NCBI GenBank assembly: GCA_011634665.1
Contig: WAEK01000057.1
Span: 1-21,396, forward strand
Direction of reading: 5' to 3'
Length of the DNA stretch: 21,396 nt
Origin: Mortierella sp. BCC40632
Lineage: Eukaryota > Mortierellomycota > Mortierellomycetes > Mortierellales > Mortierellaceae
Made by a program: the position numbers and the translations under genes. Positions within the stretch are counted from its first letter, which is position 1, and each line of letters starts with the position of its first letter. The notes beneath the pieces were generated by a model. It worked only from the letters and a program-made list of their open reading frames with translations. It was not told the origin of the DNA and made no database searches. Shown here in pieces: positions 3,161 through 21,396 of the stretch.

Positions 3161-3303
3161 TTCTCCATTTCATCTGTTTTTGTTTTTTCCACTCTTATTT
3201 TCGTGGATTATGCACGGTCCGTTACATGGGGTTACTGCGAAGGGAGATGTTAATCCTCAAATAAGCAGCGCAAACTGAAGTCAAAAACAGGTGAGAAGGA
3301 CAA
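3161..3303 (+). mobile_element. 143-bp TIR element (Stowaway-like MITE), copy 2
   Basis: Same length and ends as copy 1 (TTCTCC...GGACAA) and nearly identical internally. The right flank is TA (3304-3305); the left flank is TT, so one base of the target duplication appears mutated. No open frame of note. Confidence 0.85.
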
Positions 3304-3420
3304 TACTTTCCAATACTTTTTGGTTTTCCGCTCTTATCTTAGTCAGAATTCATGCGCAAATGAGGACTTTATTTATTTATGTATTTATTATAAACTAAAA
3401 TGGACTTCTATTACTTTGTA

Positions 3421-3514
3421 AAGAAAAAAAAGAAAGAAAGAAAAAAGAAAGAAAAAAGAAAAAGAAAGAAAGAAAAGAAAGAAAAGAAAAAAAAAAACAA
3501 AAAAAAAAAAAAGA
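3421..3514 (+). repeat. Purine tract, A-rich with AAAG/AAAAG units
   Basis: Almost pure A and G over about 95 bases. The lysine-rich open frame across it follows from base composition and is not a gene. It precedes 120 bp of unassigned sequence before the 3' end of the next minus-strand gene. Confidence 0.8.
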
Positions 3515-3638
3515 GGATAGTCGGTATTTATCACGGCATTGCCACAATACCTAGAAGAACGCTACCCCGTGCTCTGCCCTGCTCAACTGTTCAAACATGG
3601 ATGGGTTGCTGTAACTATATCCCGGGGGGGATGGTCCG

Positions 3639-4572
3639 TTAGTTGGGAGATAATGACAAGGGTCTCGTACTTTGGACTCGTGCCATCAAAAAGAGGTCTG
3701 TCAAGATGACGCTGTCTTCACAGGGGTAGTACCTTTCGATGACTGTCCCATCATCTCCGACTTGTCGGGCTTTCCAGTGCCAAGACTTGGCTGTGTCAAA
3801 ATTGGTAGAAGAAATCTTTTGGGTTCTGGTAATGTACGCCTTTACTTCTCCAACTCTCATTGTCGAGTCTACAATGACAATATTACTTTCAACTTTTCGA
3901 CCGAGATGTTCGTACGCAACGATGACTGACCTTTCCCCGATCTGTTTCAGCTTGTCTAATGAATTGGAGAGAATTTCCCCCATGTTAGGCATACCCATTT
4001 TTTTTACACCGTTTCTCAATCACAACAGCGACCGACTTCAACCCCCTCAGATACATACCCCTTGGCATCGGTAGAGTCACACTTAGATAGTCAATCCCAA
4101 ACCGTAGACCGACATTTGGGATGTCCTTTACTAGGAACGTCGCAGGATAGCAGGCCACCTTTACCACTGGCCTCCCTCCGGCTCCTGGAGTCTCCGAGAT
4201 CCACTTCAGCTCCATTTCTCCGTAGTCCATTCGTTTGAGTCCTACCGGCTTGTTCGAAACGCTATTGAGCAAATGCTCGTTCACCCGCTTTTTTACTCCG
4301 CTCATCGAGTCTTCTCCTTTGACCTCGACATAGAATACAGACTTGCTGTGGTGTTCAATCCTGACTCTAATCAGAACCCGCTCCTCGTCCTCGACCTTTT
4401 CGAGCCCATTCTCCGTAAACGGCCCCCATCTTTTCATACCTACTAACCTCTCTGACCCCATTCGCTCTACTCGCTCTACTCGCTCCCCTACTCGTTCTAC
4501 TGATGGTCCTAACGGTCCTGACGGTGGGGGAGGGGAGGAGAGGCGCGTCAAACAAGGCGACGCTCCGAGCAT
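3639..4572 (-). CDS. Two-exon protein with two ubiquitin-like modules (tentative)
   Basis: Two frames overlap and neither is complete alone. Splicing a 103-nt intron (3956-4058; donor GTATGT, branch CTAAC at the right distance, first AG after it is CATTAG) joins them in phase 1 into about 276 residues: exon 1 4059-4572, exon 2 3639-3955. Residues about 66-164 and 180-266 share a layout of two strands ('RVRIEHHSKSV' against 'IVAYEHLGRKV'), then a helix containing VKK or VKA, then further strands. This resembles ubiquitin-like beta-grasp folds, where a VKxxI helix follows the first hairpin. That fold is an inference. The N-terminus is uncertain: ATG 4572 abuts a CA repeat and residues 25-37 come from a GAGTA-type repeat; ATG 4461 is the alternative start. 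Confidence 0.55.
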
Positions 4573-4578
4573 GCTTAC

Positions 4579-4601
4579 CACACACACACACACACACACA
4601 C
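4579..4601. repeat. (CA)n microsatellite
   Basis: Eleven CA units directly upstream of the candidate start codon of the gene at 3639-4572, so probably in its 5' UTR. Confidence 0.95.
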
Positions 4602-4680
4602 CTGGGCACGCAACCGTACCTTTAAAGTCCTGATGGTGACTCTGATGGCGACTTCGTGACTTCGTGAGATGGATATGTCC

Positions 4681-4880
4681 CAGAGTCTGACCCCCTCCTC
4701 CCTCCCTTTTATGCCCCCTCCTCCCCCTCCCTCCCTACCAACCTGATTTCTCCCCGCCCGTTACCCCCGCCCTTTTCCCAAAAAGCTCAATCCCCCATCT
4801 CGCTCTTCCCTATAGCCCCCCGCCCCGACCCCGAAGCCTGAATTTCCTTTCCCTCCCTGCCTCCCAATAACCGCCCTCCA
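4681..4880. repeat. C-rich pyrimidine tract between a protein gene and the rRNA fragment
   Basis: About 200 bases dominated by CCCTCC/CCCCTCC units, unlike the AT-rich surroundings. A TATA-like box for the minus-strand gene lies inside it. The tract stops about 40 bp before recognisable LSU rRNA sequence starts, so it may mark the rearrangement junction. Confidence 0.7.
4706..4713 (-). promoter_or_regulatory. TATA-like box, gene at 3639-4572
   Basis: The minus strand reads GCATAAAAGGGAGG, 134 bp upstream of ATG 4572. It resembles the AGTATAAAAGAGG boxes at 11503 and 18154. Confidence 0.4.
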
Positions 4881-4921
4881 AATTCTCTTGCTTCCTAGAG
4901 GAGAATTTATAAGAGGGTTAT

Positions 4922-4961
4922 AATAACTGGCTTGTGGCAGCCAAGCGTTCATAGCGACGTT

Positions 4962-4997
<36 letters not shown>

Positions 4998-5041
4998 ACT
5001 GAAGCAGAATTCAGTAAGCGTTGGATTGTTCACCCACTAAT

Positions 5042-5096
<55 letters not shown>

Positions 5097-5493
5097 ATGA
5101 AGTGTTGTTGCAATAGTAATTGAAGTTAGTACGAGAGGAACACTTCATTCGGATAATTGGTATTTGGGTCTGCCTGAGCAGGCAATGACCCGAAGCTATC
5201 ATCCGTTGGATTATGGCTGAACGCCTCTAAGTCAGAATCCGTGCTAGAACGCGACGATTACCGCCTTTTCCGATATCTAGTTGAATACGAATAGGTCTTC
5301 GGGCCCTGAGTCATACTACGTGGGGAGGTCTTGCATGGCGGAAAGGCTGTGTGAGGCACCTGCTTTTAAAACAAAATATTGGAAGAGATAAATCCATTGC
5401 AGACGACTTTTTATGAACAGGGTATTGTAAGCAGTCGAGTAGCCTTGTTGCTACGAGCTGCTGAGATTAAGCCCATTGTTCTACAGATTTGTT
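4922..5493 (+). rRNA. 3' fragment of LSU (25S/28S) rRNA, domains V-VI
   Basis: The sequence from AATAACTGGCTTGTGGCAG through CGTTCATAGCGACG and GTTCACCCACTAATAGGGAAC to the universal sarcin-ricin loop segment AGTACGAGAGGAAC and the 3' helix (GAGATTAAGCCC, then GATTTGT) follows eukaryotic nuclear LSU rRNA almost without gaps. Compensating changes, such as GGGTC/GACCC where yeast has GCGGC/GCCGC, indicate a real rRNA lineage and little decay. The 5' ~2.8 kb of LSU, 5.8S and 18S are absent. Homology stops abruptly at the peptidyl-transferase region, where GTTACCACAGGG is expected and AGAGGGTTAT is found. It cannot act as an rRNA gene alone. It is a stray rDNA fragment, the edge of a broken array, or an assembly join. 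Confidence 0.93.
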
Positions 5494-5604
5494 TTTTTTA
5501 AAAAAACGATTCTTCTTCTTCTTTTTTATAATAAAAGCTTGCTGCGTAAAGATCAGAGAGAGATCATTGTCTTTGTAAAGAAAAAAAGGGCGCGCCCTCT
5601 CTGC
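5494..5604 (+). other. T-rich sequence after the LSU 3' end
   Basis: It begins with T8-A7 and repeated TTC, then the palindrome GGGCGCGCCC at 5588-5597. If collinear with rDNA this would be the start of the 3' external spacer, where T-rich Pol I terminators lie. That is inferred from position only. Confidence 0.4.
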
Positions 5605-5760
5605 TGTGTCCCCTCCCCTCCTGTGCTCCTGTGTCTGATTCTGTGACTGTCTCTCCGGGACTGCTACCCTCGCCCCTCTCTCTCTCTCAATCCCGCCCTT
5701 TCGTGCCTCTTCCCCGCCCTTCCGTGCCCCATTCCCGCCCTTCCGTGCCCCAATCCCTCC
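5605..5760 (+). repeat. Dispersed repeat R, copy 1 (after the LSU fragment)
   Basis: It contains CTCCTGTGCTCCTGTGTCTG, GATTCTGTGACTG, GGGACTGCTACCCTCGCCCC and CAATCCCGCCC in the same order and spacing as 7822-7935, with few mismatches. In copy 1 a CGTGCCCCAATCCC-like unit is further multiplied two to three times. Both copies end in a (CT)n run and both lie downstream of the 3' end of a paralogous gene. Confidence 0.85.
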
Positions 5761-15655: not shown

Positions 15656-17347
15656 ATGACAACTCACGAAAACGACTATCTTAAAACCAATTTGCCGGAC
15701 AAATACACAATTGAAGGATGGGCACTCAAAGAACTTCACACTAAAAACTCTGCATCGATAAAAGAATTGGAACAAAAATGGACCTCCACTGTGTTAAGAT
15801 CTCTAAGTAAGGAGCCTTTGCGCTCGGAGAAGCACAACGCTTTCCTTCGCTTGTCCCATTTCACAAAGGACACTAGACTTTCATTTTTCAAAAGCGCTAT
15901 GAACTCTGTAAGTTGTTGAAACTGGAGCAGAGTGGATCTTATTCTACCTTTTATTTTTTTTTTTTCCTTTTTTTTTTTAAGTTACTTTTTACGGATTGAC
16001 TAATTCTACCATGGTATCGTATAGTACCAAGTTATTACCGCCATAGCGCCTATTGCAACCGAGAATACAATTGCAGTTGCTGAACTCGAATCGATCTCAC
16101 TACGGGAGAACATTAATTCATTAATTGAATCCAAAGGAAAAAGAAAACGAGCGGACACATCAACAACTACAATTTCACCACGTCAAAGCGACAACAAAGC
16201 ACAGATACCTACTCATTTGTCATTCGATGGTCTACCAAAATCTCTTTCCGATATTTTAAATCGTTTCAACACTGCAATCTCGAATGGTTCAACGAGAATG
16301 CCCTGGGTTCTCAGCTCTGGAACTATCGTGGATGACAAACTTACTGCCTTTGCTTGCTCCCTAAAAGGAGAAGATGCTCTCCACTCCTTTATTTTTGATA
16401 CAAGCAACGCCGACATCATGAGACTATTCACAGAAGCCGAACAGCTTGAAATCCAAACAATAAATCTCCCTAGAAGATCCAACAATTCCTATTTATCCAA
16501 ATACCTCGCAACCTTCAACTATCCGACACTGAAAGAACTACGAACCCGACTTAGAAACAATGACTCGGATGACGTGGACCCTGACAGATGTCACGATCTA
16601 TCCGAGATTCGTTTATGCCGTCGATGGATTTACAAGTCAATCCTTAAAATGGCTGATTTAATGGAGATGGCTTCAGTCCAAAACTTTGGTTCCGATCTCA
16701 AGTCCGAAAGATGGTACGAAATACTCGTTTGGAGTATTCTGGACGAATATGCAATGAATAGCAACAACGTAGAACTGTTAAGGGGTGAGCAGACAAGCAG
16801 TGCTAGCTCATTTCGTAAAAACTCTTTTACACGAACTGCTGGCGAAAGAAAAAAGATGGGGCGAAGGATAGACGGACTGTTTCGATCAAAGTTTGACAAG
16901 ATGGAGATGGGGGGAATCGAACTTGGACGGCAAGAGGAAAATAGCGACGGCACCAAGTACTCTGAAGATGGATTGAAACTGCAAAAGATGCTTAAAGACC
17001 AGTTCGATTTTGCACTCCACCATAAACCCAATATATCCAAAAAGGATGTAGAAATGCTAGGTCTTCACCTTCTGGGTCTTTCGATGCAAGTCATTTCCCT
17101 TGATTGGGTTGGCGGTCTCTTCCTACGGTTCCGTAGAGAGGACAAGACTACCTTGCCGACAACCATGGATAATTTCCATCATTTGCTAATGGCCATGGCC
17201 AGAATTATGTTATTATTCAATCGTCTATCTGACAACATCATCAGAATCAATCCTTCAAGACCTTCCTCTTTACTTGAAGACATTATCAGTCCACCCACCG
17301 AAATTATTCAGCTATCGCAAGAGACGCCAACCGCAACATCTCCTTAA
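15656..17347 (+). CDS. Two-exon PD-(D/E)XK-nuclease-like protein, early-diverging fungal family
   Basis: Exon 1 is 15656-15907 (ATG in CTACCATGA) and exon 2 is 16025-17347. The 117-nt intron (GTAAGT...pyrimidine run, GACTAAT branch, GTATAG) is phase 0, giving 524 residues. A basic cluster GKRKR at about 122-126 could be a nuclear localisation signal. The C-terminal half has helix SERWYEILVW (Glu 312 and 316), then RRIDGLF (Asp 367), then GGIELGR (Glu 383), then TKYSEDGLKLQKMLKD. A helix Glu, strand Asp and strand Glu in this order resembles the PD-(D/E)XK restriction-endonuclease-like core, though the usual Lys after the last Glu is Gly-Arg here. I recall similar RRxDG / E-x-G / KLxKxLKDM proteins as large families in Mucorales; this is memory, not a search. 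Function is inferred; activity may be lost. Confidence 0.65.
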
Positions 17348-18892: not shown

Positions 18893-21057
18893 ATGATCTC
18901 AACAAAAGACCAATTCATATCTGAGCTTTACATCCTCATTGGTGTTGCATACACTTGTACTCATATCACCCAATCCCACATAAACACGCTCGTCTCTCTG
19001 GGTTTCGAACTATCGACCTCAAGCTCACAAACCAACTACATCGATTCCATCTGCGACTCACTCTCATCGATTAGCACACTTTCAAGCTCAATTTTGACTC
19101 CTTCCACTTATCAACAAGTTTCTCCCAATATTCACAATGTTGTAACCTCCGACAATACCCTTCAACGTATACTCTCTCCTCCGCTGTACTCTCAAGACTG
19201 GCCCCACCTTGATCTTATCTCGAGTTCCTCCAACAACACCCATCAACTCGACAGTCGGTTCTCAAATACTCAACAAACAACCCCAAGTCCGCCCAGTCAA
19301 CAATGTCACTTATCTTATACTCCTGCTAAGTAACGTCTGCCTTCATTGTAATTCATTACGCGCGTGACGGGTTCACCTCTTCGCGGGGGCTCTATTCAAT
19401 ACTTACATGGTTTTATATATTGATATTATTTTTCGAATCCTTAGACACTCTTCACAGTGTTCTCCTACAAACACTCCAGAAATATCGAAAATACTCGACC
19501 ACATAGCCAACTCCCCTACCACCCCCTGGATGATTCTATTGCGTTTTGAGAAAAACACAGACAATATTAGTGCGCCTTTCGACGTTAAAAGTGATACCAA
19601 CTCGCCATTCGACAATGCAGCGCACTCTCCTACAAGCATCAGCTCCTCATGCACACCACCTAGCACTAAGTGCGATGCCTCTTCTCAATCCAATACCTCC
19701 ATTTATTCAGAAAAATATTGCATGCCATGGGGATTCTCGTTTAATGGCATCCGATATACAGAACACTTGCTCTCTTGATGCGCCTCTCATTGCATGGTTC
19801 ATTTTACGGTCTTCCAAAAACAACGCTCATCCACCATTCCTGCTATCTTCTAAAATAATCAACGGTTTATCCAATATGGACCACCTAATGGACGTTGAAA
19901 ACGCATTGACGTCACAAGAGTGGAGTAAGGCTAGATGGATTTGGTGTACAAAGGTCCATACATCAACAACCCAGTCTCAAAAACACCGATCACTCTGGGG
20001 AAGTATCTATGAGACTTTCCTAGACCATTTGCCCGATTTAACGACAATCAAGTATACTCAAAGGACATGCTGTACAGCGACCACATGCCCTGACTTTCAA
20101 AAGACAGAGTTCAAAGTAATGCATTCAATCCTCATCCACAACCCTTTCAACATTACACAACACATTCTCAACAATTCAATACAACCCGGACACTCGAATT
20201 GCTCGTGCTTTATTGACAGTGCGCAAGCTCACACTATGGACTTCACTCAACTCCGAAAACAATCAATACGTAACGTTGACACCGGAGATATTAATGAGTG
20301 GTTTTCTTGTTCAGGCGTTCGCACAAGTGGAGATATTTCTATTACACAATCACCCTATATCCTTGTTTTAAACTGCTTGGATTCATGGCACTCCATGAAA
20401 GCGACAGAAGGTCACCTTAAAATGCCTGAGCCGACTCTTACTTTTCATGGATACACGTATTACCTTGGTGCTCTCTTTTTTGGAAACGGATCCCATTTTA
20501 GTTGTCAAATAATTTGCGATGAAATGGCAATTTTTTATGATGGCCTGTCAACTATTCCGTGCCAGCAGATGCCCAAAACCGTTATGGGGTTACCAGAGTC
20601 GTATATGGACAATGGATACATACTCGACCAAGTTTGGTACATCAAATCTACAGCCTCCTCTCCTTTGACCTCTGACCAATCAAACGAAACCCAGTCCTAC
20701 ACATCCAAGTCTCCCAACTTACAACAAAAACCCAGTTTCTCAAGCTCAAGCTTCAACCATACAAAAAGTACACAACTTCGACGTTCCCTCCGATATATAC
20801 CATCGATTCAACAGACAAACACAGAAAAAGACTTTTATCCGGTCGGTCTATCGATCGCTGATGTAAAACTTAAAGGAAAAAGACCGGTGTGTGCGTTTTG
20901 TAAAAAGCTTATTGATCGAGGTGACACTAGGCTTGTATATAAAAAAAAAATGACGTCCAATAACTTGCACGGCGTCACATTCACTCATAGAAATCTCAAC
21001 TGTTTAAAAGCTCTTCCAACTAAATACCAACTCAAAGCCGAAAAACTCGTTGTTTAA
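18893..21057 (+). CDS. USP-like cysteine protease with PARP-like zinc finger, frame-shifted before the active site
   Basis: Exon 1 (18893-19329) joins exon 2 at 19445 through a 115-nt intron (GTAACG...CTTAG) in phase 2. Exon 2 is read to 19760 (GIRYT), where the frame must move by +1 (one base skipped or two lost) to continue as NTCSLDAPLIAWFIL (Cys codon 19768). The uncorrected frame stops at 19776. Conceptual length is about 682. N-T-C-x-L-D is the Cys box of clan CA ubiquitin proteases. Gly-S-HFSC (His codon 20494) and FYDGL (Asp 20539) form the His box. Cys pairs between them may bind zinc, as in USP fingers. The C-terminus has C-x2-C-x28-H-x4-C (codons 20890-21003), like a PARP-type finger. 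The expected role is deubiquitinase or SUMO-protease-like, which is unproven. It is a broken copy unless the shift is a sequence error or programmed. Confidence 0.65.
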
Positions 21058-21200: not shown

Positions 21201-21223
21201 AAAAAAAAAACAAAAAACAAATA

Positions 21224-21366
21224 TTGTCCTTTTCACCTGTTTTTGACTTCTGTTTGCCCTGCTTAATGGAGGATTTGCCGCTCCCTTCGCAGTAACCCCA
21301 TACAACGGACCGTGCATAATCCACGAAAATAAAAGTGGAAAAACCAAAAACAGATGAAATGGAGAA
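21224..21366 (-). mobile_element. 143-bp TIR element (Stowaway-like MITE), copy 3
   Basis: Begins TTGTCCTTTTCACCTGTTTTTG and ends CAAAAACAGATGAAATGGAGAA. It is flanked by TA on both sides (21222-21223 and 21367-21368). Orientation is opposite to the copies at 667 and 3161. Same length as both, moderately diverged from them in the middle. Confidence 0.85.
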
Positions 21367-21396
21367 TAATAGACGACCTAGAATAATTCTTTATTC

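Follow-up and report, generated by a model that had tools for sequence, protein, structure and literature searches.

What kind of protein is encoded at positions 18,893 to 21,057 of contig WAEK01000057.1 of Mortierella sp. BCC40632, and does it derive from the host or from a mobile element? The stretch analysed, here called the window, is 21,396 nucleotides long and corresponds to C57:1-21,396 in the searched assembly (49.9 Mb, 62 contigs). A preliminary description read the gene as a ubiquitin-specific protease (USP)-like enzyme fused to a PARP-like zinc finger, possibly from a mobile element or selfish gene family of early-diverging fungi. The reading that we favour, with modest confidence, is a divergent USP-fold isopeptidase with a DNA-holding PARP-type finger, which originated as a transposon protein and of which the window copy now stands alone. 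It builds on observed paralogy, residue conservation, coding constraint, the ranking of the protease fold, and adjacency or fusion to a second, upstream region.

The genome contains at least three distinct protease loci: the window gene with its near-identical copy on C37 (C57/C37), a paralogue at C2:127,618-128,913, and a broken copy at C5:677k; all locus counts in this genome are lower bounds. The C2 paralogue is an intact 544-aa stop-to-stop frame with 33% identity to query residues 75-505 (E 3.2e-70; 142/429 aligned residues identical). It retains the catalytic residues, four cysteines assigned to a fingers subdomain, and the C-C-H-C ligands of the C-terminal finger. Identity between the C2 and window copies is 203, 230 and 143 of 429 aligned codons at codon positions 1, 2 and 3, respectively, a pattern that indicates a conserved protein, beyond chance. 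The C5 copy has lost its reading frame and has an arginine in place of the histidine.

Outside this genome, relatives are few. With the C2 protein as query against a database of 5.8 billion sequences, two of 6884 scored candidates are relatives: P0002 from Lunasporangiospora selenospora (Mortierellaceae; E 4.2e-83) and P0003 from Mortierella sp. GBAus27b (E 4.6e-12). A combined alignment (A4) used as query recovers P0002 again and nothing else among 7997 scored candidates, and the window frame recovers none of 3405 candidates at E<=10 in a database whose fungal coverage is uncertain. Viral contigs gave 27 pattern matches, none of them confirmed. P0002 as annotated contains the cysteine but neither the His/Asp stretch nor the finger, and the similarity of P0003 fades shortly past the Cys box; conservation of these features is therefore limited to C2 and C57/C37.

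In the window copy, the readable part of the USP-like protease domain begins shortly ahead of the Cys box (19756..20651, forward strand, as are all gene features given here), as judged by alignments and by comparison of a C2 model with USP structures. The predicted catalytic cysteine (TGC, 19768..19770) marks the start of a long helix, since helix 25-40 immediately follows Cys24 in the C2 model. The predicted catalytic histidine (CAT) is followed by a phenylalanine at the aromatic gatekeeper position (20494..20499), in line with the rule, given in passages of PMC7391069, that an aromatic residue follows the catalytic histidine. Fifteen residues past the histidine lies the predicted catalytic aspartate (GAT, 20539..20541), within a YDG motif that aligns in C2, the window and C5. 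All three codons stand where the preliminary description placed them, and the order of the triad is the same in C2 and the window. Four further conserved cysteines (codons 20071, 20086, 20200 and 20308; 20071..20310) are present in all four sequences aligned there (C2, window, P0002 and C5) and, from the alignment, likely form the zinc site of a USP fingers subdomain.

An AlphaFold model of the C2 paralogue is weak (predicted local distance difference test score, pLDDT, of 56). Foldseek comparison of this model with the PDB returns 53 matches at E<=0.001 (best 5.7e-7) and retrieves USP structures, which mostly cover residues 69-320. The preliminary description had named two outcomes that would contradict it, a predicted fold lacking a papain-like core, or the absence of any homologue that conserves the Cys, the His and the four zinc ligands. 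The C2 model matches USP (papain-like) structures and the C2 protein keeps all of these residues, so neither outcome occurred; fold ranking, residue order and the conserved fingers cysteines together support a USP-like protease.

PAN2 is also among the Foldseek matches, which raises the alternative of a pseudo-protease whose USP fold binds ubiquitin or SUMO without catalysis, as PAN2 does, possibly as the remnant of a decaying element. USPs keep an oxyanion asparagine five residues before the catalytic cysteine. In this family that residue varies (His in C2, Arg in C37, Gln in P0002), and the losses in the C5 copy also fit such decay. However, the cysteine, histidine, aspartate and the aromatic residue after the histidine have all been kept between C2 and the window at 33% identity, and we regard a pseudo-protease as improbable.

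The protease has no match in Pfam, NCBIfam or PDB sequences; against the latter, both the window frame and a protease profile are unmatched at E<=10. The genome contains 45 UCH matches (exon matches), none of which lies at C57, C37 or C2:127k; the UCH and zf-PARP genome searches matched in 0 of 14 control genomes. Peptidase_C98 (PF15499) is unmatched at E<=1 in the window and C2 proteins and in the genome, and its control matched only below cut-off, in one of 14 genomes. The 50 Foldseek rows listed for the C2 model include no USPL1 chain, which is not counted against kinship. The protease belongs to a small family in Mortierella-type fungi.

Evidence for a mobile origin comes from the region upstream of the protease. 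On C2, a 506-aa open reading frame (ORF; L010:59-1579) lies directly upstream of the protease and matches the GCM family at E 0.0014, below cut-off. By its layout and an F-S-D-x-E stretch, this region looks like a DDE transposase. In P0002, a counterpart of this ORF (43%) and the protease (51%) are fused in one protein, and P0003 has the same order of transposase-like region followed by protease. At C5, the GCM/transposase-like part and the protease are both present and both broken. Compared with PDB sequences, the C2 ORF gives two weak rows and no support for a transposase, and BLASTP of the transposase-like region against three of the 41 Mutator-like element (MULE) places in the genome gives a best E of 0.72. 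A GCM-family search of the genome returned no match there, nor in any control genome, and is therefore uninformative.

Two further observations concern this region. A TA-flanked inverted-repeat element of ~0.8 kb (L010:1579-2387) sits between the C2 transposase-like and protease ORFs; its ends recur as inverted pairs ~0.7-0.8 kb apart at several other places in the genome, resembling a family of miniature inverted-repeat transposable elements. The same GCM-type domain (48%) is found at L026 (G000:C11:1280824-1281153), in a 419-aa frame with no visible transposase-like part, which may be a host transcription factor.

The C-terminal finger (20791..21054) was identified by codon reading, Pfam and Foldseek. 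Its ligands are encoded by TGT 20890, TGT 20899, CAT 20986 and TGT 21001, all within the range given in the preliminary description, and form the pattern C-x2-C-x28-H-x4-C; the H-x4-C ending is also found in C2. Among Pfam families, zf-PARP fits the window finger best, yet it scores 16 bits where the cut-off is 39.3 (E 0.022), and such a sub-cut-off match is seen in one of four finger copies. A six-frame zf-PARP search of the genome (E<=0.01) matches another place only, and a finger profile compared with PDB sequences yields three weak rows (E 1.4-9.5), none of them PARP. In a Foldseek search with a model of the finger, the top 13 rows are all PARP1 or LIG3, with weak E values of 0.17-0.70. 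By eye, the finger and the zf-PARP found elsewhere in the same genome (L060) have C-x2-C-x3-I-x5-R in common. A PARP-like, though not exact, finger is therefore plausible: the ligand order, top Pfam family and top Foldseek rows agree with the earlier assignment, whereas the scores and the spacing of the last ligands do not.

A finger of another treble-clef-like type that makes protein contacts (YlxR-, FBP- or LIM-like, for instance) and is unrelated to PARP is somewhat unlikely, considering that the best Pfam family, the first 13 Foldseek rows and the motif common to the host zf-PARP all point the other way. The finger also occurs alone at C5:1,203k, at C5:473k (with stops) and at C8:836k (with Phe replacing the last Cys). 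Upstream of the stray finger at C5:1203k (L012:3118-3390) is a 361-aa ORF (L012:1112-2197) that is PD-(D/E)XK-like by eye.

Several results weigh against a transposon-derived USP with a PARP-type finger. Pfam UCH (PF00443) is not matched by the window or C2 proteins at E<=1, and the H-x4-C spacing of the finger differs from the H-x2-C of zf-PARP, with which the host zf-PARP ends. The C2 transposase-like ORF has no transposase profile match. Element ends were not found around C2 and C5, where the inverted-repeat test covered exact matches and these reach at most 12-13 bases. No transposase-like partner is reported for the window copy on C57 or C37. The earlier suggestion of a mobile-element protease in early-diverging fungi therefore holds in part: two Mortierella-type proteins and the C2 and C5 loci place the protease behind a GCM/transposase-like region, but no such partner is reported at the window and no element ends were found.

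A rival reading is a rapidly evolving USP-family gene of the host (a lineage-specific deubiquitinase or SUMO protease), with the GCM/transposase-like linkage at C2 and in Lunasporangiospora arising through element capture or through a host fusion that was never mobile. In its favour, the window copy starts at an ATG of its own, carries a putative intron and is reported without a transposase-like partner; the transposase identity derives from a sub-cut-off GCM match and motif reading; and the genome carries ordinary USPs, as its UCH matches indicate. Set against this, the two relatives among 6884 candidates are both Mortierella-type and both have the same upstream region, broken copies of both parts lie together at C5, and the family is unmatched by the UCH profile. 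We consider a host origin unlikely.

Under the favoured transposon-derived reading, we infer activity, modifier choice, DNA binding, transposase identity and role as follows. A Cys-His-Asp isopeptidase with zinc-stabilised fingers would remove ubiquitin or SUMO from proteins, and, on the model of PARP1 and LIG3, the C-terminal PARP-type finger would hold it on DNA, perhaps at breaks. The ancestral transposon protein may have been brought in this way to transposon DNA or transposition breaks, where the transposase, or else repair and silencing factors, could have been its substrates for removal of ubiquitin or SUMO. The gene in the window would then be a freed descendant that stands alone in an AT-rich repeat region and has a start and an intron of its own. 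A more specific and decidedly speculative proposal is an undescribed architecture of a transposon protein in Mortierellomycota, in which a GCM-type domain, transposase, USP-fold deconjugase and PARP-like finger form one chain. The finger would dock the deconjugase where the transposase has broken the DNA, and would thereby control which repair or silencing factors keep their tags, and the window gene would be the freed, intron-bearing protease-finger half on an AT-rich accessory region.

The limits of the window gene agree with the preliminary description, as an ATG at 18893 and a TAA at 21055-21057 can be read directly from the sequence. Start, stop and key residues hold up, but a single reading frame does not, given a putative intron and a frame break in the window copy. 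The gene probably has two exons. Exon 1 (18893..19329) comprises 145 codons plus two bases, is Ser/Thr-rich, remains open from the ATG to a GT donor, and has no Pfam match at E<=1. A putative 115-bp GT...AG intron (19330..19444), proposed from the sequence and the fit of the reading frames, separates it from exon 2 (19445..21057), to which exon 1 joins in phase in the C37 copy. Exon 2 encodes a linker, the USP-like protease, a second linker, the zinc finger and the stop, and in the window copy its frame breaks ahead of the Cys box. The C37 copy is open at this point but broken after the His box; a comparison of both copies over the 2165 bp of the gene shows two substitutions and five indels of 1-2 bases. 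Because the frameshifts fall at different places, the breaks look like sequencing or assembly noise rather than decay.

The full length of the window can be aligned with C37:29,988-51,511, rotated in order, at ~98% with many gaps. Its first and last bases adjoin on C37, and the inner junction coincides with repeats. Should the contig consist of the window alone, it could represent a circular molecule, one unit of a tandem array or an assembly duplicate that was circularised. GC content is 0.40 in the window and C37 compared with 0.44-0.49 in eight loci from C2, C5 and C8, and the region is possibly an AT-rich accessory region. A 2.3-kb repeat (window 3340-5620) recurs whole or in part on C31, C34, C37, C39, C41, C50 and C57, with 44 matches in all, including shorter pieces on further contigs. 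A ~147-bp repeat occurs at 665-811, 3161-3309 and 21219-21368 in direct and inverted copies (90-95%), and in the C37 order two of its copies flank a 195-aa ORF (24-611). Upstream of the gene, a 440-aa ORF (16025-17347, forward strand) has a GR.D...E.G-like pattern, suggestive by eye of a PD-(D/E)XK nuclease. It has no Pfam match at E<=1, and its relatives occupy more places on C4, C7, C6, C14, C5, C17 and C1.

Among known systems, the USP deubiquitinases (MEROPS C19, Pfam UCH) resemble the window family in predicted fold, Cys-His-Asp order, four fingers cysteines and an aromatic residue after the histidine. The usual USP residue at this last position is tyrosine. The window family differs in its phenylalanine there, its lack of a profile match and its C-terminal PARP-like finger.

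The Cys box of the window family, C-x-L-D-x2-L-x-A, resembles that of the SUMO isopeptidase USPL1 (C98), which is not known to have a PARP-like finger. According to passages of PMC8983731, USPL1 is likewise a distant USP with a phenylalanine after the histidine and a fingers zinc held by four cysteines, and its His-Asp gap is 16, compared with 15 in the window protein. A further difference is that the USPL1 family PF15499 has no match in the window genome (E<=1).

The fingers of PARP1 and DNA ligase III share with the window finger the C-x2-C...H...C order, and the I-x5-R seen in the host zf-PARP, and they come first in its Foldseek ranking; the window finger differs in its H-x4-C spacing and its low Pfam score (16 bits vs 39.3).

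Transposons that carry ubiquitin or SUMO proteases are also known. One counterpart in PMC2836005, from the passages available, is XP_001314237.1 of Trichomonas vaginalis, in which a transposase is joined to a Peptidase C19 domain. It likewise has a USP-type domain and a transposase in one protein, but its transposase is a Transposase_11, in contrast to the GCM-type region here, and its C19 domain was recognised by a domain model. The same passages describe Ulp1 or OTU proteases in Ginger1, Mutator and Helitron elements and suggest a possible effect of deconjugation on repair in the course of transposition. Table 1 of PMC6446971, in the part available, lists MuDR-6_HM with an ovarian tumour gene, and passages of PMC9741609 report that VTD deubiquitinases spread via transposons, mainly Helitrons. 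In all of these, as proposed here, a DNA transposon carries a ubiquitin or SUMO protease, but the Ulp1, OTU and VTD enzymes belong to other protease families. A herpesvirus-type VTD was set aside for the window protease, the VTD motif being Asp-x-His in those passages of PMC9741609. KDZ elements were also considered; the main text of PMC12730594 does not mention protease, peptidase, Ulp1, USP or ubiquitin.

The role of such transposon proteases is only conjectured in the literature passages cited. No paper on a transposon protein pairing a USP with a PARP finger emerged from a literature search of titles and the beginnings of abstracts, in a collection with few subscription papers. Transposon-borne Ulp1, OTU and VTD proteases and one C19 fusion are known. 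The gene indicates a family with a USP fold that escapes the present Pfam profiles, and a USP-fold enzyme coupled to a finger of break-sensing type would offer the testable hypothesis of local deconjugation at transposition intermediates.
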